DNA of 50,553 bases from Oligoflexales bacterium. Its GTDB lineage: Bacteria > Bdellovibrionota_B > Oligoflexia > Oligoflexales > JAGOVF01. The stretch spans positions 1 to 50,553 of the forward strand of contig JAGOVF010000006.1 of the NCBI GenBank assembly GCA_018060885.1, written 5' to 3'. The notes below the pieces were generated by a model. That model did not search any database. It was not told where the DNA came from and saw only the letters and a program-made list of their open reading frames with translations. This document shows positions 14,182-33,201 of the stretch, one piece after another (position 1 is the first letter of the stretch; each line of letters opens with the position of its first letter). Position numbers and translations under genes: made by a program.

Positions 14182-14496
14182 ACGTTGGCTCCCTATAAGT
14201 ATTTATAATCTTGATTCAATAAAATACGTCTTTTACTGACTAAGTAAACGATAATTATAAAAGATAAATAAAATGTTGTCTAAAATCACCTTTTTCCCCG
14301 ATGCCTTGCCCTGAAAAGCACGGCCAGCTTGAATTGAAACATTAGGCAACGATTAACTTATCTTCAATTATCTGTAATCACTAGATATTTTTCACCATAA
14401 GCTAAAACTCCGGAAAAAACTTAACTTTTTCTCCTAAGTTCCGAACACCTCAATAGTCCAAAATGGGACATGAACGTTTTTAGAGGAAAAGATTCT
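14182..14496. other. divergent intergenic region between trxA and envelope cluster
   Basis: About 315 AT-rich bases separating trxA (minus) and the beta-barrel gene (plus). It should contain both promoters, but none was convincing. A short in-frame extension from ATG 14470 exists for the downstream gene. No hairpin of note was seen. Confidence 0.45.
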
Positions 14497-15279
14497 ATGC
14501 ATACTTCTACGCAAGCGCTGCGAAAATGCTATTCGTTTATCAAGTCTAGCTTCAACCTTCGTTTAATAACCCGGCTTTCCCTTGTTATCGCAATGGCAAT
14601 TGGAGTTCATAATACAACAGCATTTGCACTTGAGCTTTCGCCTGAAGAAATTAGAGGCGAAAAAACCAATCGTCCTGTGAGTGTGTTGCAAAATAGATTT
14701 TTTAAGAAAGTATTACGCCCAGAACTCGGAATACTCGCTGGCCAAGTCAATGACGAAGCGTACCTAGAAACGAAATATACCGGTGCGCGCCTTGGTCTGT
14801 TTTTTACCGAACAGATTGGCCTCGAGTACCAATTTATAAAGACTAAGGTCAGTGATAGCTTAGATAGAAAGGCCCTTCGTAACATCAAGTACCTACCCTA
14901 CCCTCTTCCAACTGAAGAAGAAGACCCGAACTTTGATCCTGCAACGCAATATAAAGAAGTAAGCCCTGAAATTAATCCTATAAGAAGGGCTCATGATTTA
15001 ACCGCCGTCTATGCTCCTATTTATGGAAAACTCGATCTGCTCAACGCCTATATTCTCTATTTTGATTTATATATCAGCTTAGGCCTTTCGAAAGTAGACA
15101 CTGATCAAGGAGAAAAAAGTGCTTTTACTTTTGGAATAGGTGAACGCTTCTACTTCAGTGAATCATGGTCTATTCGAGTAGACTACAAGCGAAGAATGTA
15201 TGACGAAACTCGCGATGGAAAAACTGTAAACAAAGACGCCGATACTATTGATTTGGGACTTAGTTTCTTTTTCCTTTAA
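14497..15279 (+). CDS. outer-membrane beta-barrel protein, first gene of TPR envelope cluster
   Basis: The ATG at 14497 is preceded by AGAGGA at the right distance, so it is preferred over ATG 14470. The 260-residue product has a signal peptide (basic N-terminus, hydrophobic residues about 30-45, likely cut after AFA). The mature part shows alternating aromatic/hydrophobic strands and ends in DLGLSFFFL, a terminal aromatic strand typical of barrels. It resembles the outer-membrane beta-barrel domain proteins of deltaproteobacteria found beside gliding-type TPR genes (GltA/GltB-like in Myxococcus); that link is inference. The next gene starts 35 bases later. Confidence 0.75.
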   Translation: MHTSTQALRKCYSFIKSSFNLRLITRLSLVIAMAIGVHNTTAFALELSPEEIRGEKTNRPVSVLQNRFFKKVLRPELGILAGQVNDEAYLETKYTGARLGLFFTEQIGLEYQFIKTKVSDSLDRKALRNIKYLPYPLPTEEEDPNFDPATQYKEVSPEINPIRRAHDLTAVYAPIYGKLDLLNAYILYFDLYISLGLSKVDTDQGEKSAFTFGIGERFYFSESWSIRVDYKRRMYDETRDGKTVNKDADTIDLGLSFFFL

Positions 15280-15314
15280 GAAGAAAAAAGAAAATAGCCA
15301 CATAGGAAAAAAAG

Positions 15315-16985
15315 ATGTTTAAAGTAGAAAAAAAAGATAAAAAAACAAACTCAAAGGTAAAAACTTACACTGGGATTATCATGGCTTCCGCAGTATGTTT
15401 TGCCTTTAGCCTAAATTTACTAGCGAATCCGAATTCTAAAAAACAAAAAATAAACAAAACAAATAAAAACAACACCCAACAAGCCGCTTTAAGTTCTGAA
15501 GAGAGAAATTTTCTTGATTTAAAATCTAAGCACCGCAACGGAAAAATTTCTAAAACGCAATTCTGGCGTGGAATGGCTAAAATTATTCCAAATCTAGGTA
15601 AGCTAAGCTATCCATCCCAGCTTTCTTTGGTACAGTTGAATGCAAATATTCTAAAAGAAACAGGCTATCCTCTGAGTGCAGCACTACAAGCTTCGCAAGC
15701 TATCATGTTAGCTAATAACCCTATGGAAGAAGATGTTAAGCCAGCATGGAAGCTACTAAAGGACATTGCAGATAAAAGAACTATCGACACTCTCCTCGAA
15801 ATTTTAGCAAAAAATCTATTTGAAAAAAACAATCAATTGACTCCACCCTACTTTGCAAACAATTGGAATTACTATGTTGGAAACTCTTTGGCAAAAGAGG
15901 CTAAATCAAGTGAATCAATTGTCTACTTCGATAAGATTCAGACGAGTGATTCCCACTTTGGCTTAGCAAGCTACCAAAAAGCAATGCAGAAAGTCGAACG
16001 CGGAGATCTGAAGGAAGCTGAATTGGACTTAAGTATTCTCGTTCATCCGAGCGTACGTGAAAAAATCTCTGACAAACATTCGGCGAATGAAAATCTATTT
16101 GACTTGAGTTATTTGGCACTTGGTCGGATTAATTATGAGCAAAAGGACTTTCAAGATTCATTTACAGCCTACCGCTTAGTTCGAAAAGATAGCCCATACT
16201 TCTATGAAGCCCTTTTTGAACAAGCTTGGGCCTTTTTTATGGCCGGCTATCCGAATCAAGCGCTCGGAGCTCTACATGGAGCCGAAAGTCCATTTTTTAG
16301 CAAAAAATTTAATCCCGAAGTCAGTATTCTAAAGTCGAGCATCTACTATTGGATGTGTCTTTATGAAGATAGCAAGGTTGGATTGCGCGAATTTTTGGAA
16401 AAACATTCTAAAAGCGTAGAAACCCTAGCAAAGTACTTTCACAACCGAAAGCTTGAGCCAGAAACAGCCTATGAAATATTCGAAAACTATATATCTGGTG
16501 TCAGCGCAACAACAATTGGCATACCCGTCGATGTTCTTGATACCGCAGCTACAAGCGATGGCATGATGTTCTTGCGCAGTCAATATGCGGATATACTGCA
16601 AGAGTCCGAGCGCCTAAAAAAATTCAGTGCCGGTAAGCGAGTAGATACTAATAGGGCGCAAGACTATTTACGAAGACTGACTAAATCTATGCAAATCGAT
16701 ATTGGCCGAGAATTTAGCGATCAGCTCATGTTGATAAAACAAAACTATGAAGTATACTATGAGCAAGCACAATTCCTATATGTTGAATTATTGATGAGTG
16801 AAAAAGATCATCTATTGGGCAAAGAACTCCATGCAGATTCTAAAATTACTACGGTGTCTAGCGCTAATGTTAAAGGTTGGGGTCAAACTGATTACTCTTG
16901 GAAAGATGGGGTTGGAAAAGAGTATTGGTGGGATGAAGTTGGGCATTTTGTTTATAGAGCAAAACCAGCATGTAATATTCAGTAA
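15315..16985 (+). CDS. periplasmic TPR-like protein
   Basis: A 556-residue protein with a Lys-rich N-terminus, a hydrophobic segment (about 18-36, signal peptide or anchor) and a helical body with degenerate TPR units, for example LGRINYEQKDFQDSFTAYRLV and the ALFEQAWAFFMAGYPNQALGAL stretch. The C-terminus ends in an aromatic-rich stretch (EYWWDEVGHFVYRAKPAC). Position between a beta-barrel and a giant TPR protein suits a GltC-like periplasmic component, which is inferred from architecture only. Confidence 0.7.
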   Translation: MFKVEKKDKKTNSKVKTYTGIIMASAVCFAFSLNLLANPNSKKQKINKTNKNNTQQAALSSEERNFLDLKSKHRNGKISKTQFWRGMAKIIPNLGKLSYPSQLSLVQLNANILKETGYPLSAALQASQAIMLANNPMEEDVKPAWKLLKDIADKRTIDTLLEILAKNLFEKNNQLTPPYFANNWNYYVGNSLAKEAKSSESIVYFDKIQTSDSHFGLASYQKAMQKVERGDLKEAELDLSILVHPSVREKISDKHSANENLFDLSYLALGRINYEQKDFQDSFTAYRLVRKDSPYFYEALFEQAWAFFMAGYPNQALGALHGAESPFFSKKFNPEVSILKSSIYYWMCLYEDSKVGLREFLEKHSKSVETLAKYFHNRKLEPETAYEIFENYISGVSATTIGIPVDVLDTAATSDGMMFLRSQYADILQESERLKKFSAGKRVDTNRAQDYLRRLTKSMQIDIGREFSDQLMLIKQNYEVYYEQAQFLYVELLMSEKDHLLGKELHADSKITTVSSANVKGWGQTDYSWKDGVGKEYWWDEVGHFVYRAKPACNIQ

Positions 16986-17023
16986 TTAAGAGTGAGAAGA
17001 AACGATTTTAGAGGAGTATGTAA

Positions 17024-20000
17024 ATGTATTGTTTAAAAACAAAAAAAGAATTATTTGCGCTTTTGACTATTCTGGCGCTTCTTTTTCCAAGCTACCTTAT
17101 CAGCAAGCCTACGATTCAGGTTGAAAACTCAAAACAAAAGAGTAAAGAATTCTCACCCACCATTGAGAACCATGCGGAGTTTTTCCAGCAAGCTTCTCAA
17201 CAAGAAAATATCAATGCTGACAAAGCTGACGAGATTCGAGTTAAAAGTATAAATTCAATTAGCTCACTCATAGAATCAGAGAAAATAGACAAGAACAAGA
17301 AATTCGAACTCTATTTAAGAATGGGGGAGCTTTACGTTGAGCGCCACGACTATCTGAGAGGAAAAGAAATCGAGTCATTTGTTAAAGAATATGACAAATG
17401 GCAAAATGAAGGCGCAAAAAATAAAGAACCTGTGATTAATCATCAAAATTCGAAGAACGAGCTCACAAAAGGCACCAATGCATTTCGCAGTTTAGTTACT
17501 AAATATCCAAAGCATCCGCGCCTAGATGCTGTACTAATGGAATTGGGCAGAAACCTTACACGTTTAAACAATGATAATGCAATTATGTACTATAACCAGC
17601 TATTGACAGAATATCCAAAATCAAAGCTCATACCAGATGTCTATCTTGCTTTGGGAGAGCACTATTTTGATAAACATGACATAAACAATGCACTCAAAAA
17701 CTACAGAAAAGCAATGGACTTTAAAGATCACCGTGTTTATCCCTATGCCGTGTATAAACTCGGTTGGTCACATTTCAATTATAACAATCAAAGTCCGCAA
17801 GAAGAAAAAGAAAATCTCAACAAAGCTCTAGCCGCATTCAAATTAGTAATTAAACTTGCTGATAAGAACAAAGACAATTCAGCCCTGACAAATCTACGTG
17901 AGGAAGCTGTTAAAGATCTGGTGCTTGTATGGGCAGAAATTGAAGACGTCGATGCGGCATGGGCTTATTTCAAGACTATAGGTGAGAATGATGCTTTCTT
18001 TGTTTTATTAGAGCGTTTAGGTGGCATTTATTCTGAACAAGGCAAAAATGACAAAGCTCTTGCTGTTTACAATCGCCTTTTAAATCAGGCTCCTAATCGC
18101 GAAAGCAGTCCAAAAATCCATGAAAATATTGCTCGACTTTACGAAGTCACCAACAAACCTGAGTTGATAGTTAGCACTCTCGATACTATGGCAAAGCTCT
18201 ATGTGAATAACGGTGCTTGGGTGAAAGCACAAAAGGACGCGCCAAAAGAACTTTTTGAAGGAGTTGCAAAACAACTAGAAAATTCACTCTATCGTTATGC
18301 CGCGACGTTTCATAATTCCGGGATTAAAAGGGATGGCAAGCGAAGCTTTGTTTTAGCGCGCGATAGCTACTTGATCTATTTGAGGTCATTTCCCGAACAC
18401 GCAAACGCCTATACAATTAGGTACAACTTAGCAGACATCTATTTCAACCTTAACGAATATGACCAAGCTGCAAGCGAATATATGACAGTGTCTCAAAATA
18501 AAAGTGAGAGCAAATTTCTCAAAGACGCCGCCATGAATGCCGTAGTATCAATGAATAAGATCATTGAAATAAAAAAATACCCTACACTTCCACCACCCGG
18601 TGAAGTTGCTGAACCGGTGGCAATTCCATCCGAAAAATTAAAACTGATTAAAACGCTCGAAAACTTCGTCGCTCTTTTGCCAAAAGAAAAGAATTCTAGC
18701 AACTTTACGATGACAGCTAGTAATATTTACTTCAGCTATGGGCACTATGAAAAAGCAATTACTCAATACAAAGGTATAATCGAAACTTATCCTGAAACAA
18801 AAGAAGCAGAAAATTCCGTACAAATCGTTATTAATTTTTTCGCAAAACACAAAAAATGGCCTGACATGGTTGCCTTTATCGGTAGCGTATCGTCAAAACC
18901 TAATTTGTTGAAAGATCCAAAATTACGTGATTTTGTCTCTAAAAGTTTGCAAAATGCCACATTTAATCTTGCATTGTTGGAAGAAAGTCGAAAAAACTAT
19001 CTAGCAGCTGCAGATAAATTTATGGAATACCAAAAGAATTTTTCTAAAGACGAAAACTCAGATCGAGCTCTACATAATGCTTCAATAAATTATTATCGAG
19101 CTGGAAAAGCTGTTTCTGCAATAAACGCATTGGAGATGCTGATTAACAATTATCCAAAATCAACCATGGCTCCAGATGCATTTGCAAAACTTGCAGAGAC
19201 CAATGATGGACTAGGAGAAGTTGAAAAGGCCGCTTATTACTATTCGCAATTAGGTACGCGTTACCCAACAGATAAAAGAACACCTATCAGCCTTTATAAT
19301 GCTGCAACTATCTATTTTGGATTAACCAAGTTTTCCGATGCAAAATTAAATTATCAGAAGGTAATAGCTAGTCATAAAAATTCTGAATTCTTTTTGAAAT
19401 CTTTGAGTGGCTTGGCAGCTACTTACGAAAAAACAGCCTTATATAAAGATGCCTCAAACGAGTATGAAAAATTGTCAAAAGTCGCTACTGATAAACAAAC
19501 TAAAATGTTCGCCCGCGCAAAACAAGCTTCACTTATGCTTAAATTTGGCGAAACAAAAAAAGGCGACAGGCTTATGACTGATTTGTTAAGAGAAGTTACT
19601 TCGGATCAAGAAACAGAAGCCTTTGAGGCAAGAAAGATTGTTGCCGAATACCACTTTTCTGCGATTCAAAACAAGTACAACGAATTTATGAACACAACAC
19701 TTCAGATAGCTAAATTAGAAAAGACAGTCAATGATAAACAAAACATTTTAAAATTTCTTGCCGATAGCTACCAAAGAATTATCGCAATTGGCAGCCCTGA
19801 ATACTTGGTTGCAAGTCTCTACCAATTAGGTTGTTTGCATGAAGATTTTTCTAATCGACTGTTTGCGGTTGAGGCACCGAAAGGAACTGCACCCAAAGAA
19901 GTCGACCAACTCAAATCAACACTTGAAAAATTAGCATTTCCTTTGAAAAAAGACGCAATGGAATACTTCGAAACCGCGTACCAGAAATCAATTGCAGTGC

Positions 20001-20152
20001 ATTCATTTTCCAGCTGGACTCAGTTGACTTATAAAAAATTGACTCAATTAAACAGTACAAAGTATCCGCTTATCGACGCAATCGCGCTGACACCTGGATA
20101 CCAAAGTCATAAAATTGTATTAACAGATGCCACAGCTAGTTTGGCTAATTAA
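17024..20152 (+). CDS. large periplasmic TPR protein (GltD/AgmU-like architecture)
   Basis: A 1042-residue protein with a signal peptide (hydrophobic 12-28) and TPR repeats along most of its length, with repeated Y-P-K/S and A-x-x-x-Y-x-x-L patterns from about 150 to 880. TPR arrays are protein-interaction scaffolds. Size, signal peptide and position in a barrel/TPR/TPR-lipoprotein cluster resemble AgmU (GltD) of the myxobacterial gliding complex, but the assignment needs a profile search. RBS AGAGGAG precedes the ATG. Confidence 0.75.
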   Translation: MYCLKTKKELFALLTILALLFPSYLISKPTIQVENSKQKSKEFSPTIENHAEFFQQASQQENINADKADEIRVKSINSISSLIESEKIDKNKKFELYLRMGELYVERHDYLRGKEIESFVKEYDKWQNEGAKNKEPVINHQNSKNELTKGTNAFRSLVTKYPKHPRLDAVLMELGRNLTRLNNDNAIMYYNQLLTEYPKSKLIPDVYLALGEHYFDKHDINNALKNYRKAMDFKDHRVYPYAVYKLGWSHFNYNNQSPQEEKENLNKALAAFKLVIKLADKNKDNSALTNLREEAVKDLVLVWAEIEDVDAAWAYFKTIGENDAFFVLLERLGGIYSEQGKNDKALAVYNRLLNQAPNRESSPKIHENIARLYEVTNKPELIVSTLDTMAKLYVNNGAWVKAQKDAPKELFEGVAKQLENSLYRYAATFHNSGIKRDGKRSFVLARDSYLIYLRSFPEHANAYTIRYNLADIYFNLNEYDQAASEYMTVSQNKSESKFLKDAAMNAVVSMNKIIEIKKYPTLPPPGEVAEPVAIPSEKLKLIKTLENFVALLPKEKNSSNFTMTASNIYFSYGHYEKAITQYKGIIETYPETKEAENSVQIVINFFAKHKKWPDMVAFIGSVSSKPNLLKDPKLRDFVSKSLQNATFNLALLEESRKNYLAAADKFMEYQKNFSKDENSDRALHNASINYYRAGKAVSAINALEMLINNYPKSTMAPDAFAKLAETNDGLGEVEKAAYYYSQLGTRYPTDKRTPISLYNAATIYFGLTKFSDAKLNYQKVIASHKNSEFFLKSLSGLAATYEKTALYKDASNEYEKLSKVATDKQTKMFARAKQASLMLKFGETKKGDRLMTDLLREVTSDQETEAFEARKIVAEYHFSAIQNKYNEFMNTTLQIAKLEKTVNDKQNILKFLADSYQRIIAIGSPEYLVASLYQLGCLHEDFSNRLFAVEAPKGTAPKEVDQLKSTLEKLAFPLKKDAMEYFETAYQKSIAVHSFSSWTQLTYKKLTQLNSTKYPLIDAIALTPGYQSHKIVLTDATASLAN

Positions 20153-20166
20153 AAAGGAGTTATTAT

Positions 20167-21291
20167 ATGAAGCATTATTCTTTATTAAGCTGTTGGCTAC
20201 TCTTATCGTTTCTGTGGATGTCTTGCAAAACGACAGAACCTATACGTTCTGTTAACTCCGAGCGTCAAGAGGCGCTGCTTTATTCTTCTTATGACCCGAA
20301 CTCCTCTGTATCTTCAGGCTATAAAGGCTTGGACTCCTTAGTTAAAGCTACCGAAGAGCGAGTTAATTCAAATCCGAATGAAATTGACGCAATTTTGAAC
20401 CTCGCCCAAATGTATCTTTTACAAAATAGAATTGCCGACGCAGAACTTTTAGCGAAACGCGCCTTGGCAATAGACTTCAAAAATATCGCGGCGAAAAAAG
20501 TACTTGCGACCACTACTTTTAAAAAAGGCCAGCATGATTTAGCTGAGGTTCTGCTCTTGAATTTAGGCGGAGAAAATTCAAATGATAGCGAAGTTTTAAA
20601 TTTACTGGGTCTCATAAGCTTAGAGAAAAAGGACCCAACTAAAGCGATCTACTACTTAAAAAAGGGACTCGAAATCAACGCAGAAGATTCAGCCATAAGA
20701 ATGAATTTAGGCGGAATGTATTTAGAATATCGCCAATTGCATCTAGCTGCCGCTCAATTTGAGCGAGTTTTAAAATCTATGCCCCAACACATTGATGCAA
20801 AAATTAATTTAGGTATCGTCAAAATGGCACGAGGAGAAGCAGAAGCCGCGGAAACTGATTTTGGTGAAGTTTTAAAATCAGATGACAAAAATTTACCCGC
20901 ACTTTATAACTATGCATCGGTTCTGTATCAGCTACAAAAATATAAAGATAGCGAATCAGTTCTTAAAAAATACATAGCTTTGCTCCCTGAAAATTCTCAA
21001 CAAATGCAAATGGCCTTCGCATTGGCCGACAAATTGCAACAAGCCCAAGGCTCAGAAAGCGGCATAAGCAGCGAAGAAATTAAAAGCCTATCCGACCGTA
21101 TGGCAGCTTCAGAGACAAATAATACTAAACGAGTTGTCCAAAAAGACGCCCTGAAAACACAAGCCCCTAAAGAAGAAGTTAAGCCAACCGTAATGGAAAA
21201 AGCAAAAGTGAACACAAATCCAGAAAAGGGTACTGTTCAAAAAGTTTACCAAGACGAAAACATTGAAGACTTAGAACGAGCATTGAAATAG
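20167..21291 (+). CDS. TPR lipoprotein (AglT/GltE-like)
   Basis: A 374-residue lipoprotein: signal peptide with WMSC lipobox (Cys 20), then five or more TPR units between about 50 and 285 (NLAQMYLLQNRIADAELLAKR, LNLLGLISLEKKDPTKAIYYL and similar), and a Lys/Glu-rich tail. AAAGGAG precedes the ATG, 14 bases after the previous gene. It resembles TPR lipoproteins such as AglT (GltE) of the gliding machinery in order and shape. This is inference. Confidence 0.75.
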   Translation: MKHYSLLSCWLLLSFLWMSCKTTEPIRSVNSERQEALLYSSYDPNSSVSSGYKGLDSLVKATEERVNSNPNEIDAILNLAQMYLLQNRIADAELLAKRALAIDFKNIAAKKVLATTTFKKGQHDLAEVLLLNLGGENSNDSEVLNLLGLISLEKKDPTKAIYYLKKGLEINAEDSAIRMNLGGMYLEYRQLHLAAAQFERVLKSMPQHIDAKINLGIVKMARGEAEAAETDFGEVLKSDDKNLPALYNYASVLYQLQKYKDSESVLKKYIALLPENSQQMQMAFALADKLQQAQGSESGISSEEIKSLSDRMAASETNNTKRVVQKDALKTQAPKEEVKPTVMEKAKVNTNPEKGTVQKVYQDENIEDLERALK

Positions 21292-21313
21292 TCGCAAAAT
21301 GGAGCTTTTTAAT

Positions 21314-21595
21314 ATGAAAATCAAAAAAATAATGATTATGAGTCTTTTATTATTTTCGGCATCTCTTCTTAGCGCCGAAGAAGAAGCTCGACCGGATTAC
21401 GTAAAAGAAGCACTCCTTTCTTCAACTAAGTTAGATTTTAGTGAAGCTTTAATTGACGGAAAAATGAAAGCCCCTGTCGGGTTTATGATTTCAGGTCGCC
21501 AAAATCAATCATTGACTCAAATGGTAAAACTAAGGTCGGAATTCAGACGGGAGCTCAGGGGATCAAAATTAGGCGCTAAGAGCCTGGGCCATTAA
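21314..21595 (+). CDS. small secreted protein, CglF/AgmX-tail-like
   Basis: The 93-residue product from ATG 21314 (GGAG at 21301) has a signal peptide cut near LLSAEEE. The mature 70 residues contain LDFSEALIDGKMKAPVGF and LTQMVKLRSEFRRELRGS. This pattern (an I-x-G, then P, then a basic/hydrophobic helix with an RxxFxxEL core) recalls short proteins and C-terminal tails encoded with gliding-type clusters, such as CglF or the end of AgmX. It closes the plus-strand block 14497-21595. Assignment is tentative. Confidence 0.6.
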   Translation: MKIKKIMIMSLLLFSASLLSAEEEARPDYVKEALLSSTKLDFSEALIDGKMKAPVGFMISGRQNQSLTQMVKLRSEFRRELRGSKLGAKSLGH

Positions 21596-21612: not shown

Positions 21613-22275
21613 TCAAATCGCAACATTGTAGCTGAGACTAACTTCTGCTGCGTGTAATTTCATAGTCGCAGTACCTCGCCATCGATCGATCCTGAGATCA
21701 AAAAAGCTATTTTCTCCGAGCTTATAGAGATAGCCTAAACCAATCGATACTCCAACTTCTTGCTTATAATCTAGGCTTTTTTTCATCGGTATCATTGCCT
21801 TTTGGACTGGTAATAAATAGAGCAATTTAGTGCCCAAATATATAAAATGTGGATAAAATAAGCGCGTCATATAGTTAATTTCCTGATATAAATTAAAAAT
21901 TGGAAGTTCGCGGTCTATGCCCTTTTGTTTCATAAGTTTAAAGCCGCCTCCTACTCCCAGGAGCCACTTTGGATGGAAAATATAGCGATACCCTAGGTGC
22001 CAGTGACTTTTTGATGTACTCAATTCCGAAGACCCAGAGGCTAGTGGCATAGTTTTAGAAGCAGTAACTGCAAAATAAGTATCTTTAAAGAGAAGCGGCG
22101 TTTCTTGACTAGTATTACGCGATATTTCAGCAGTAGGTAGCGGCTCTTTAGTTGTAGGTTGCACTTGCGAAAAAGCATTGCTCGTACAAGTCATGACAAA
22201 GAAAAAAAGCCAGGGATATGACTTGCCCTTAAAAAAATTAAATAGAATCTCGCTATAATCAGACGCATCACTCAT
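21613..22275 (-). CDS. probable outer-membrane protein, unknown
   Basis: A 220-residue protein with a hydrophobic stretch at about 20-36 ending in SNAFSQV, consistent with a signal peptide after a long N-terminus. The mature part has alternating polar/hydrophobic strands and ends with EVSLSYNVAI, as in small beta-barrels. The ATG at 22275 has no visible ribosome binding site, so the start may lie further in. It converges on the gliding-like cluster with a 17-base gap. Confidence 0.55.
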   Translation of the reverse strand: MSDASDYSEILFNFFKGKSYPWLFFFVMTCTSNAFSQVQPTTKEPLPTAEISRNTSQETPLLFKDTYFAVTASKTMPLASGSSELSTSKSHWHLGYRYIFHPKWLLGVGGGFKLMKQKGIDRELPIFNLYQEINYMTRLFYPHFIYLGTKLLYLLPVQKAMIPMKKSLDYKQEVGVSIGLGYLYKLGENSFFDLRIDRWRGTATMKLHAAEVSLSYNVAI

Positions 22276-24408: not shown

Positions 24409-24422
24409 AAAGGAGTTTGAAT

Positions 24423-25223
24423 TTGTTTCTAAGATATTTATTGACCTCTATACTTCTATTGTTAGTCTCATGCGAAACAATTTCCAATTTATTTTCAAGC
24501 TCAGATCCAAAAGAAATTGAAAATCTGACACCAATAACAGAAAAAAAATCTTTAGCTTTTGCCGCTGATTCTAATGAAGAAGACATACATTATAAAATTG
24601 CAAAGCTTTGGGCGAGAGTTGACGATCTAAATATAAAGCTTAAAGAGCAGGAGGAAAAAGTCAGTGTTATAGAAAAAAGCTTTGCGCTCGGCCTCAGCCC
24701 TAACAGGCCTGAAACTGAAAGCAAAATCGAAGACTTTCAGACCCCTCTTGCGACAAATGACCATGAGGACACGGAAATTCAAGCACCTCCAAAATCAGCT
24801 CCAAGCGCAAATGTGCTTGGCGAAAGCAGCATCGACGACAGTGTGTATGAAGCTGCATTTGCCAAAGTTCATGAGTTTTATCGCTTAGGGAATTATGGTA
24901 GGGCTATTGTCGAACTCAATGAATTGCGCAAAAAATATGGTGAAACCTATCGCCAAGGTATGCATATTTATTGGATAGGAAAGTGTTGGATTGGACTTCG
25001 AGAATATGAAAGTGCACGAACACATTTAGAATCTTTTATCGCTCAACAACCTAATAGCCCCTATTTAGCTAGAGCCGAATTTGATCTTGCCCGCGTTTAT
25101 CATTTAGCTGGACAAAGAAACTTAGCTGTAAAATTGCTAAAAAAGATTATTGATAGCTATCCAACTCAAGAAGTTGCGGATATGGCAAAGCTGCAACTTG
25201 AAACAATGCAGCAAGACTTATAA
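24423..25223 (+). CDS. CpoB/YbgF-like TPR lipoprotein
   Basis: TTG 24423, eight bases after AAGGAG, gives a 267-residue lipoprotein with lipobox LVSC (Cys 17). A predicted coiled coil (about 58-85, KIAKLWARVDDLNIKL) precedes a Pro/Ser linker and C-terminal TPR units from about 145 (FAKVHEFYRLGNYGRAIVEL). This is the layout of YbgF/CpoB proteins that work with Tol-Pal in outer-membrane constriction. No tol or pal genes are adjacent. A second protein with the same layout lies at 32407. Confidence 0.8.
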   Translation: MFLRYLLTSILLLLVSCETISNLFSSSDPKEIENLTPITEKKSLAFAADSNEEDIHYKIAKLWARVDDLNIKLKEQEEKVSVIEKSFALGLSPNRPETESKIEDFQTPLATNDHEDTEIQAPPKSAPSANVLGESSIDDSVYEAAFAKVHEFYRLGNYGRAIVELNELRKKYGETYRQGMHIYWIGKCWIGLREYESARTHLESFIAQQPNSPYLARAEFDLARVYHLAGQRNLAVKLLKKIIDSYPTQEVADMAKLQLETMQQDL

Positions 25224-28471: not shown

Positions 28472-29437
28472 ATGCTAAATCTAAGTTTAGAAAAAGCTTA
28501 CATTTTATTTCCCCTTATTCACGCGTTTCATCAAACCTTGAATAGATGGCATAGCTTGAATAGCTATATAATCCAGTCAAATGAAAAGTTACCAACACCT
28601 AAACTTGGATCAGAAAATTTGACTAAATTCTACGCAGAATTCAGCGCAAACAAGTGGACAGAATATTTCTATACTCACTGCGAAATATTTGAAAAGTTAC
28701 TACCCTCGAAAAAACTCTTCGCTCTCTACCACGACAATATAATTCGTATTACTGCCGCCTTGCAGCGACACTTTGAAGCTGCAGCAAAAGCAAACGCACA
28801 TAGCCTATTACTATTTGAAAAGCGCTATCCAACAAAACTGACTTTTGTTTCTGACGCACCTTTAATGTTGACTTTTGTTGGACAGGGCACCTTATTGGCA
28901 CAAAAAAACATCGCTTTAGTAGGTTCTCGGAAAGCAAATCCGTTGGTTTTAGATAAGTGTTATTCCTTTGCCAAAAATTTGTCCAAAGATCATGTGATCA
29001 TCAGTGGTGGTGCCTATGGCTGCGACATTGCGGCGCATCTTGGTGCCCTCGATTCGAAACAAATTCCCACGCCAACCATTGTGGTTTTTGCGGGTGGGCT
29101 CTTCCGGTGGTTTCCAAGGGGTAATCATCATATTTTTAGGAAAATATTCGAAAACGGTGGCGTGCTACTCAGCGAACGTCTATGGCATAGCGTGCCGCGG
29201 CCATGCGACTTTCCAATTAGAAATCGGATTATTTCTGGCATGTCTCAACAGCTCGTTATCATGCAGGCACAGCGGCGGTCAGGTGCTCTCACTACGGCAC
29301 GTTATGCACTTGACCAAGGGCGCGACATTTATGTGTATCAGCCATCGAGAGTTCAGCATCCTTCTTATATCGGATCAGAGGAACTCATTGCTCAAGGCGC
29401 TGAAAGCTTTCAAGACATCAGCGAGCTCCCACTATGA
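28472..29437 (+). CDS. dprA: DNA-processing protein DprA/Smf
   Basis: DprA loads RecA on incoming single-stranded DNA in natural transformation. The Rossmann-like domain shows ALVGSRKA, IISGGAYGCDIAAHLGAL, VVFAGGL, SERLW and the hallmark FPIRNRIISGMS followed by SGALTTARYALDQGRDIYVYQPS. Length of 321 includes an N-terminal helical region of about 120 residues. There is little room for a C-terminal winged-helix domain. It overlaps the next gene by 4 bases (ATGA), so the two are translationally coupled. Confidence 0.92.
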   Translation: MLNLSLEKAYILFPLIHAFHQTLNRWHSLNSYIIQSNEKLPTPKLGSENLTKFYAEFSANKWTEYFYTHCEIFEKLLPSKKLFALYHDNIIRITAALQRHFEAAAKANAHSLLLFEKRYPTKLTFVSDAPLMLTFVGQGTLLAQKNIALVGSRKANPLVLDKCYSFAKNLSKDHVIISGGAYGCDIAAHLGALDSKQIPTPTIVVFAGGLFRWFPRGNHHIFRKIFENGGVLLSERLWHSVPRPCDFPIRNRIISGMSQQLVIMQAQRRSGALTTARYALDQGRDIYVYQPSRVQHPSYIGSEELIAQGAESFQDISELPL

Positions 29438-30309
29438 ACTTTGAAGCCAATATCCGCCAGTTATTAACGCTCTTTTCAGAAGAGGTCGACGAATTACTTT
29501 TCAACGGCTACTCAACTGCTTTCGCCCTTGAATCTGGACAAATGAAAGTGGTTAAAAGCCACTTTACCTCAGAAGACAGTTACATCGATTTTTTACAAGA
29601 ATTTTCTCAATTGCAAGGTGTACGATTAGATCCCTATCAGCCTTTTGCTGGTGGACAGTTTCAAGCTGGGGCCTACCGTTGGCACTGCATTTTACCTCCT
29701 ATTAGTCAGTGTGGCCCTATTTTTAGCCTACGCAAAAATCGTTTTTTAGAGTTAGAAATCGATCATTTTACATATAAACGCGAAGTTTTCGATCGTCTCG
29801 AAAAGGCTATAAGGGAAGATAAATCTCTGCTCATTTTTGGGCCTACGGGTAGTGGGAAAACAAGCCTGTTAACGGTCTTACTGCAAAAGTATTGTGCCTC
29901 AGAGCGTATTATCATTCTAGAAACCTTAGCTGAAATCCCTCAATTAAATCCAAAATGGGTGCGCCTTGTCGAACGTCAGCCAGATTTAGAACAAAGGGGC
30001 GAAGTCCGTTTACCTAGTCTATACAAACAAGTCCTACGTCTTAGACCTGATCGCATTATAGTAGGAGAATTAAGAGGCGAAGAACTTAGTGTTTTTTTAA
30101 ACGCGTTACATTCTGGCCATAGAGGTAGTTGGACGACTCTACATGCAAGTGATCCACAGCAAGCTTTCAAACGCTTTAAAGCACTTATTAATGAATACAG
30201 CACAGAAAAATTCGAAGATTGCCTGGAAAACTTATGTTTTGTTCAACTAGCTCGCGGTAAACCGCCGATCATTCAGTCGCTTTTATTTGCGAATGAAATT
30301 AATTATTAA
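29434..30309 (+). CDS. CpaF/VirB11-type secretion ATPase, isolated
   Basis: A hexameric type II/IV secretion ATPase of the CpaF kind. Walker A GPTGSGKT (136-143), the Glu-box/Walker B region IIVGELRG (E212, R214) and the His box HSGHRGSWTTLHA (226-238) are all intact. At 291 residues it is shorter than typical CpaF because the N-terminal part is reduced. No pilin, TadB/C or secretin genes are near. Coupling to dprA (4-base overlap) suggests a role in DNA uptake or pilus action; that is inference. Confidence 0.88.
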   Translation: MNFEANIRQLLTLFSEEVDELLFNGYSTAFALESGQMKVVKSHFTSEDSYIDFLQEFSQLQGVRLDPYQPFAGGQFQAGAYRWHCILPPISQCGPIFSLRKNRFLELEIDHFTYKREVFDRLEKAIREDKSLLIFGPTGSGKTSLLTVLLQKYCASERIIILETLAEIPQLNPKWVRLVERQPDLEQRGEVRLPSLYKQVLRLRPDRIIVGELRGEELSVFLNALHSGHRGSWTTLHASDPQQAFKRFKALINEYSTEKFEDCLENLCFVQLARGKPPIIQSLLFANEINY

Positions 30310-32406: not shown

Positions 32407-33201
32407 GTGAAGCACGAAAATATTCTAATATTTTTGATAATTTCAATTTGTTTTTCATCAGTCAGCTGTATTTCAACCAAACGCGAGCGGGATCTACAAG
32501 CTCGGGTCTTTGATACTCAAGCTCGGCTTATGAAATTAGAAAACATGTTAGGCGACGGATCTAAAGCGCAGCAAGTCGGCCATCAACTCGCAAGTACGGA
32601 AATTCGCTTCGAACGTTTAGAAAAAGACCTTCGGGTGTTGCGAGGGGAGCAAGATCGTTTGCGTGTTGGAGTTTTAACTGGACAAATGCCAGGTGAATCC
32701 GCAACGGAAGCTGTGAGCGTTGCAGAAAGAATTGCGTTGCTAGAACAACGTTTTGCTGATTTAGAAACGACTCTTCAAGAAATTAAAGGGCAAAAATCGT
32801 CGAACAGTTTTAGCCAAAAATCCTCGCAAAAAAATCAAAAGGAGAATTTTGAGTCATTACAAGAAGCATTTGACGCAAAGCAATATAAAAAGGTCGTTTC
32901 ATCGGCTCCTGGACTTTTAAAATCAGCAAAAGGCGATGAAAAGCAGAAACTTTCCTATATTTATGCAGAAAGTTTATTTCAGCAAAAAGATTACCGCAAC
33001 GCCGCACTGGCCTATGATTCTTATGTAAATATAAATCCAAACAAAGCTGATCAAGGCTCTGCATTATTGCGACTAGGCGATTGTTTTCGCAATATCGGCG
33101 ATAAAGCAACCGCAAAAATCTATTACCAAGAAATTATCGAAAAATTTCCCAATTCAGAATATGCAAATGCAGCTAAAGGGATCATAAAAGACAAATTATA
33201 G
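32407..33201 (+). CDS. CpoB/YbgF-like TPR protein
   Basis: GTG 32407 with GAGGAGG upstream. A 264-residue protein with signal peptide ending SSVSC (possible lipobox, with Ser at -3 atypical), a long predicted coiled coil (about 25-125: RDLQARVFDTQARLMKLENM and ERLEKDLRVLRGEQDRL), then TPR units from about 150 to the end (YKKVVSSAPGLLKSAKG, AALAYDSYVNINPNK). This is the YbgF/CpoB layout, as at 24423. It lies 12 bases before tsaD. Confidence 0.8.
   Translation: MKHENILIFLIISICFSSVSCISTKRERDLQARVFDTQARLMKLENMLGDGSKAQQVGHQLASTEIRFERLEKDLRVLRGEQDRLRVGVLTGQMPGESATEAVSVAERIALLEQRFADLETTLQEIKGQKSSNSFSQKSSQKNQKENFESLQEAFDAKQYKKVVSSAPGLLKSAKGDEKQKLSYIYAESLFQQKDYRNAALAYDSYVNINPNKADQGSALLRLGDCFRNIGDKATAKIYYQEIIEKFPNSEYANAAKGIIKDKL

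Follow-up and report, generated by a model that had tools for sequence, protein, structure and literature searches.

A conserved five-gene Glt-like operon without motor genes in Oligoflexales, possibly driven by a second, motor-bearing Glt locus

Results

A Glt-like operon in the window

The window, the whole stretch of 50,553 nucleotides from an Oligoflexales bacterium analysed here, contains an operon of five tightly packed genes (W) at 14470-21595 on the forward strand, in the order OMP-GltC-GltD-GltE-GltF and with intergenic gaps of 35, 38, 14 and 7 bases. The cluster of five same-strand genes with small gaps described in the initial annotation is thus present with all its open reading frames, but the start it gave for the first gene, 14497, is an internal ATG at codon 10 of a frame that begins at 14470. 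The genes are:

14470..15279, + strand, W_OMP, GltA/GltB-type outer-membrane beta-barrel, 269 aa (TIGR04565 OMP_myx_plus; PF13505)
15315..16985, + strand, W_GltC, GltC-like periplasmic TPR-type protein, 556 aa (NF033756 gliding_GltC)
17024..20152, + strand, W_GltD, GltD-like large TPR protein, 1042 aa (TPR families)
20167..21291, + strand, W_GltE, GltE-like TPR lipoprotein, 374 aa (NF033758 gliding_GltE)
21299..21595, + strand, W_GltF, CglF/GltF-like short secreted protein, 98 aa (NF033764 gliding_CglF)

Profile searches with NCBIfam bear out the relation to Glt proteins that had been suggested from gene order and size. W_OMP matches TIGR04565 (1.1e-23, 84.1 bits), exceeding the cut-off of 60, and also PF13505 (4.2e-6). 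W_GltC matches NF033756 (1.5e-24, 86.7 bits), W_GltE matches NF033758 (2.5e-14, 53.1 bits) and W_GltF matches NF033764 (1.4e-6, 28.2 bits), all of them under the equivalog cut-offs (450, 225 and 90, respectively) of the strict myxobacterial Glt complex. In the comparison set, the GltC cut-off was exceeded by genomes G085, with 1060 bits, and G148, with 493.7 bits (summed). Many general TPR models match W_GltE equally well or better than NF033758, and no GltD-named model of NCBIfam matched W_GltD. The W_GltD profile recovers the large TPR protein in 13 loci outside the phylum, with 131 to 665 bits.

A lipobox-like motif is present in 20 of the 28 W-type GltE proteins, and the W-type GltF has a C-terminal block that is conserved across 25 aligned copies. 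The AlphaFold2 model of W_GltC (pLDDT 81.9, pTM 0.77) is all-helical except for the C-terminal end and forms a helical solenoid, which we judged by eye to be of the TPR type, with low-confidence ends. Promoter and terminator scans gave matches no more frequent than in shuffled sequence. Downstream of W, at 21613-22275 on the reverse strand, lies a barrel gene with no relative among the fetched loci.

The statement that the window has no motor genes holds, as none of the eight MotA/ExbB and four ExbD matches of the genome is on its contig, and there is no GltG on this contig among the GltG-profile matches listed.

A second, motor-bearing operon in the same genome

The initial annotation proposed to look for AglRQS and AgmX elsewhere in the genome: AglRQS homologues are on contig C186, and an AgmX-type tail protein is on contig C4. 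The AglRQS genes on C186 are part of a paralogous operon (M), AglR-AglQ-AglS-OMP-GltC-GltD-GltE-GltG, whose GltD matches W_GltD at 2.5e-70 with 25% identity. The FHA/TonB-type GltG of M (NF033760, 5.1e-38, 131 bits, under the equivalog cut-off of 650) is the one full-length GltG of this genome, and its AglR-Q-S set is the only one adjoining Glt genes that was found among the eight MotA/ExbB matches. AglQ and AglS of M retain the membrane Asp of this motor family. An unlinked GltF is encoded on contig C261. The tail protein on C4 belongs to another motor set, with ExbB-like and ExbD-like proteins, and matches the C-terminal end of GltG (1.3e-9); ExbB/ExbD sets are also present on contigs C147 and C169.

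Apart from W, the genome contains a complete glt-like core locus that includes AglRQS and GltG, a result that the initial annotation had named in advance as refuting. The proposal of a partial gliding complex misses this locus; the alternative suggestion, that W is an envelope system related to Glt but with some other, still putative job, agrees better with the data.

Distribution and conservation of W

Among 58 genomes of the phylum that were searched for both operons, W is present in 34, all of which also have M, 15 have M alone and nine have neither. M was called in the W genomes by GltG in 33 cases, and in G005 by an M-type GltD (996 bits). The association of W with M has a Fisher p of 1.2e-4, uncorrected for kinship, and eight of the nine M-less genomes belong to one genus, which confounds the nesting of W in M genomes.

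Of the 34 W loci, our own included, 26 are complete and the remaining eight are cut by contig ends. The complete loci all share the five-gene order on a single strand, and this recurrence (26/34) puts the order beyond chance. The fetched stretches of all 34 loci lack motor and GltG genes, and none has an own GltG paralogue equivalent to NfsG; the absent parts of W are exactly the inner-membrane ones. GltF is found in 33 of the loci, the exception being G010, which is cut by a contig end. An incomplete locus or an assembly artefact was rejected, given that GltF is the last gene of the operon in the 26 complete loci, with no gene family shared downstream by all of these. W is a conserved, separately inherited operon, and neither a remnant nor a broken gliding locus. 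The fetched loci show no conserved additional genes next to W; a barrel-like gene on the same strand comes after it in just four loci, all from a single genus-level group.

The W_GltC alignment, run against genome contigs in a scan that relies on short patterns and misses distant relatives, found 31 loci. Where these are named below 'Proteobacteria' or 'bacterium', they belong to Oligoflexia, Oligoflexales, Oligoflexus or Pseudobacteriovorax, or to Silvanigrellales or Silvanigrella. Two loci are exceptions by title, L134 (Bdellovibrio sp.) and L149 (Betaproteobacteria); they correspond to genomes G020 and G048, both in the order and class of the window.

Ancestry and rates of the two operons

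In the GltC and GltD trees, W and M each form one clade, while the deep forks, on which any affinity of W to the Nfs proteins would depend, are weak and long-branched. These trees, built by a quick method with several long branches and, for GltD, without a mixture model, put the apparent duplication of W and M before the split of Oligoflexales and Silvanigrellales. At loci outside the phylum, GltC mostly scores nearer to M, and GltD and GltE nearer to W. With these mixed score affinities, and with W and M each set alone by the trees, W is not assignable to the gliding Glt and M to Nfs, or the reverse.

GltC is less conserved in W than in M in all 210 genome pairs, and W is lower in 102 of 136 pairs for GltD and in 57 of 136 for GltE, the pairs not being independent. 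The barrel is lower in W in 124 of 210 pairs, a count that supports no claim, as the G001 entry is a longer solo barrel. A fast evolution of W as a whole was rejected, GltC alone being lower in every pair.

Comparison with known Glt-type systems

The Nfs spore-coat complex of Myxococcus xanthus (nfsA-H) resembles W in being a Glt paralogue in a cell with a common AglRQS: W is likewise a paralogous Glt set that has no motor genes of its own and shares its cell with a single AglRQS. The collinear barrel(s)-C-D-E-F order is also shared, as seen in locus L154 of G085 (presumed Myxococcaceae), and the W gene order with profile matches recurs in L161, L163 and L164, and in L166, where no E was detected. 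Nfs differs in possessing a pair of barrels together with NfsG and NfsH of its own; W has a single barrel and lacks GltG, and a GltH was not identified in it.

The M. xanthus Glt gliding machinery (gltA-K plus aglRQS) has homologues of the GltA/B, C, D, E and F of W and the same envelope location, which for W is expected from signal sequences, but is encoded in the G1 and G2 operons and not in a single operon without GltG. The Agl-Glt 'core complex' of other bacteria, in which a single region holds aglRQS together with gltC, gltD, gltE and gltG (Luciano 2011), is matched by operon M, which has an additional barrel, whereas W lacks the motor and GltG and has a barrel and GltF instead. PMC3169522 reports expanded glt/agl sets in Bdellovibrio (e.g. 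Bd0828-0838), several per genome, with GltA/B and F and without GltH-K; by this description, our genome is alike in having several glt sets.

Discussion

The motorless W probably borrows a motor, because the same genome holds the complete motor-bearing copy M. On the basis of homology, operon structure, lacking parts, the second locus, the nesting of W in M genomes and the separate ancestry of the two operons, we consider it somewhat probable, by analogy with Nfs, that W is an outer-membrane and periplasmic cargo module driven in trans by the AglRQS-GltG of M. In a surface transport machine of the Agl-Glt/Nfs type, W would provide the half that lies in the outer membrane and periplasm, and M the inner-membrane half that W lacks, the AglRQS motor and the GltG transducer. 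GltG would receive its push from the proton-driven AglRQS unit, to which the W complex would attach, either beside the M complex or in its stead, to move a cargo in the envelope; this cargo may be an adhesin, some polymer of the surface or the whole cell. In M. xanthus, according to the available text of PMC3858216, AglRQS is common to Glt and the paralogous Nfs, through AglR with GltG or NfsG. Docking on a foreign GltG is without precedent in the literature examined, since Nfs has its own NfsG and W has none, and nothing compels W and M to interact, since M is complete without W (solo GltF in 47 of 49 M genomes).

The constant absence of motor and GltG from W could also mean that it is a static structure of the envelope, in which periplasmic TPR proteins hold a barrel that acts as an anchor or porin-like scaffold; left behind after the loss of these parts, it would no longer need a motor. 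The lower conservation of GltC in every pair is what relaxed motor constraint would produce, but this holds for GltC only, and GltF, which localises to the motility complexes in Myxococcus (PMC3169522), is retained in nearly all W loci. Moreover, W never occurs without M, and its absence from 15 genomes that keep M indicates that it is not a generally required scaffold; we regard this explanation as unlikely. Another motor of the cell might instead drive W, either the C4 set with its AgmX-type tail or the ExbB/ExbD sets on C147 and C169. All three are present in the genome, and the tail does match the end of GltG. However, most genomes of the phylum encode such tails, among them seven of the nine without W and M, so that the tails do not track W, and no conserved gene family of that sort lies beside W in the fetched loci, which makes a drive of this kind quite improbable.

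Finally, W and M could build one mixed machine, in which the W barrel and GltF join the M proteins, much as GltA and GltB depend on each other in Myxococcus, where they are mutually stabilising (in the available text of PMC4488436). Each operon has one barrel, compared with two in several glt/nfs-like loci outside the phylum (L154, L155, L160, L161), and W has F without G as M has G without F. Yet the 15 genomes with M and no W, together with the solo GltF owned by nearly all M genomes, indicate that M is complete alone, and the complete C, D and E set of W would be superfluous in such a machine, so we consider it highly improbable.

For gliding in myxobacteria and Bdellovibrio, a central question is how AglRQS force reaches the surface through the envelope. 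Oligoflexales and Silvanigrellales carry the Glt machine widely, and our literature search found no earlier report of Glt genes in either order. The conserved W, complete from the periplasm to the outside but devoid of any part of the drive, is a natural experiment that divides the machine in two, and the division between W and M predicts where the two parts meet. Trans driving of W by M leads to a more general and still tentative idea, that Oligoflexia may run two paralogous outer-envelope cargo modules on one AglRQS-GltG drive, with GltG as the common output shaft. If so, GltG would serve pluggable periplasmic-outer-membrane modules rather than being a dedicated part of each complex, and W would be a naturally minimal, detachable five-gene cargo module.

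The window operon

Five genes, all on the + strand and separated by 35, 38, 14 and 7 bases, make up the window operon (W, 14470-21595), and four of their products are named by NCBIfam:

Barrel, + strand: outer-membrane beta-barrel of the OMP_myx_plus family, 84.1 bits, above the cut-off
GltC, + strand: 86.7 bits
GltD position, + strand: TPR protein of 1042 residues
GltE, + strand: 53.1 bits, alongside other TPR models
GltF (CglF), + strand: 28.2 bits

Since the scores of GltC, GltE and GltF fall far under the equivalog cut-offs, these proteins are, as judged from sequence, relatives of the myxobacterial gliding families rather than members. The 1042-residue protein is matched by no GltD-named NCBIfam model; a profile built from its relatives detects, in glt/nfs-like loci of other phyla, the large TPR protein 3' of GltC (519 bits in one of them, L154). 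Signal-peptide-like N-terminal stretches were recognized by eye in GltC, GltD and GltF, and a lipobox-like motif is present in 20 of 28 GltE relatives.

Convergent with the operon end lies an orphan barrel-like protein (21613-22275, - strand), relatives of which were sought in the fetched loci and not found. The window also encodes two lipoprotein-like proteins (24417-25223 and 32407-33201) with a coiled-coil start and a TPR-like end, CpoB/YbgF-like by eye, and a CpaF/PilT-like ATPase (29434-30309; GPTGSGKT motif, by eye) with no obvious adjoining pilus genes.

Motor genes elsewhere in the genome

The initial annotation had noted the absence of motor genes from the window, which is borne out, as neither MotA/ExbB nor ExbD matches, nor any of the GltG type, were found on its contig. 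The search for aglRQS elsewhere that it proposed revealed an AglR-AglQ-AglS set on another contig, C186, of this genome (266 contigs, 93.5% complete), which contains eight MotA/ExbB and four ExbD matches in total. The relevant loci are:

C186 (L016, 7447-17906): paralogous operon M, which begins with AglR-AglQ-AglS and continues with a second barrel, GltC, GltD, GltE and GltG
C261 (L029, 1477-1827, - strand): second GltF/CglF copy, unlinked (solo GltF)
C30 (L015, 1324-2196): unlinked gene for a third TIGR04565-family barrel
C4 (L024, 3483-7012): ExbB-like protein, a pair of short membrane-anchored proteins where ExbD would stand, and a 564-residue protein
C147: ExbB/ExbD/TonB-like set
C169: lone ExbB/ExbD pair
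C142, C105, C149 and C110: four MotA/MotB-like pairs (labels by eye)

Motor sets other than M were labelled from the sequences and their matches, not from named-family scans. The M GltG has 711 residues, with FHA and TonB-type ends. The 564-residue protein of C4 has an AgmX/GltG-type C-terminal tail, and such tails occur in most genomes of the phylum, also in genomes without glt genes. The C30 barrel could serve as second member of a pair like GltA and GltB; in the sister genus, its close relative is encoded some 8 kb away from the W operon (L064:19079-19975). The four MotA/MotB-like pairs exceed what one flagellar motor requires.

Conservation and co-occurrence of the two operons

We fetched 33 W-type and 27 M-type loci of relatives, to which this genome adds one each; genes were called as ORFs of at least 60 residues by BLAST against the window and own-genome proteins, with flanks covered as far as fetched. 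All five W genes are found in the same order on a single strand in 26 of the 34 W loci (one with an extra barrel gene some kilobases off), the remaining eight being truncated by contig ends, and no AglR, AglQ, AglS or GltG was found in the fetched stretches of any of the 34. Similarly, 24 of the 28 M loci have all eight genes in the same order and four are truncated, with no GltF found in the stretches fetched; L171 and L172 are two further complete M loci. Many M operons are flanked by isocitrate-dehydrogenase-like, SurE-like and LysM/M23-like genes (labelled by eye from sequence).

Across 58 genomes of the phylum, W-type GltC is present in 34 (W profile score of at least 436 bits, the next score being 218) and M in 49, of which 48 were recognized through GltG, some as pieces or fragments, and one, G005, through a 996-bit M-type GltD in a search covering 14 of the 58 genomes. 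W was never detected without M: all 34 W genomes have both, 15 have M alone, and nine, eight of them from one genus, have neither. Of the 49 M genomes, 47 have the solo GltF (it was not found in G007 and G010), against none of the other nine, so that the C261-type copy probably belongs to the M system as an unlinked component. Uncorrected for kinship, the Fisher test p is 1.2e-4 for the nesting of W in M and 5e-9 for the association of the solo GltF with M. Three contigs of G005 (C1001, C837 and C973) carry GltD-like matches beyond one W and one M copy, which may be foreign, because this genome is rated 8% contaminated.

Loci outside the phylum and ancestry

Outside the phylum, W GltC matches were obtained in 8 of 133 genomes. 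Five loci of these genomes (L154, L161, L163, L164 and L166) have the order barrel(s)-GltC-GltD-(GltE)-GltF-GltG, GltE being undetected in L166, and no complete motor set was found adjoining them; L161 has a weak AglR-like match nearby (60 bits). Motor genes stand beside GltC and GltD in L159 and L165, and L156, L157, L158, L162 and L167 show partial sets. An nfs identity is suggested for L154 by its genome, G085, which carries in addition a 1060-bit GltC adjoining two barrels (L155). W has the same gene order as L154, but ends before GltG.

Trees were built by a quick method from 47 rows for GltC and 45 for GltD, some of them long-branched. In each tree a single branch sets off all W rows and another all M rows; the deep forks joining W, M and loci from other phyla are weak. 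Both trees separate the Silvanigrellales from the Oligoflexales rows on the W side, and the GltD tree does so on the M side as well; among the M rows of the GltC tree, the Silvanigrellales are a single group lying between other rows. This separation is most simply explained by a W/M duplication that would predate the Oligoflexales/Silvanigrellales split, with W later lost in several families.

Discussion

In Myxococcus xanthus, earlier work describes GltA and GltB as barrels, both bound by the periplasmic GltC (PMC4488436), with GltF and GltD located at the motility complexes and GltG bound by AglR (PMC3169522). AglRQS also leaves Glt and drives the paralogous Nfs complex on spores via NfsG, so that motor sharing between Glt-type complexes is already known (PMC3858216). 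A conserved paralogous module without motor and GltG, nested in genomes with the complete core operon, was not found described in the portions of the literature examined, and the supplementary surveys of Deltaproteobacteria loci (PMC3169522, PMC3858216) may draw a similar arrangement. Searches on Oligoflexia or Silvanigrella with gliding returned general papers, and those on Oligoflexus with Glt and gliding, or Pseudobacteriovorax with gliding motility, none. A sponge-microbiome study describes Oligoflexia bins with twitching genes, with gliding genes not reported in the text available (PMC7313196), and according to a 2026 review the gliding machinery of Bdellovibrio has yet to be identified (PMC13104615).

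W retains all parts from the periplasm outward and is without exactly the drive, the inner-membrane half formed by the AglRQS motor and the GltG transducer. Such an operon could be a static scaffold, the rival we place foremost; it could, next in order, be powered by another motor; or W and M could form one mixed machine. The simplest reading, from the parts lists and the co-occurrence, is that W is driven by the AglRQS-GltG of M, into which it would plug. Given the co-occurrence counts, M and the solo GltF between them make up a complete core machine, with W as a second, optional envelope module.
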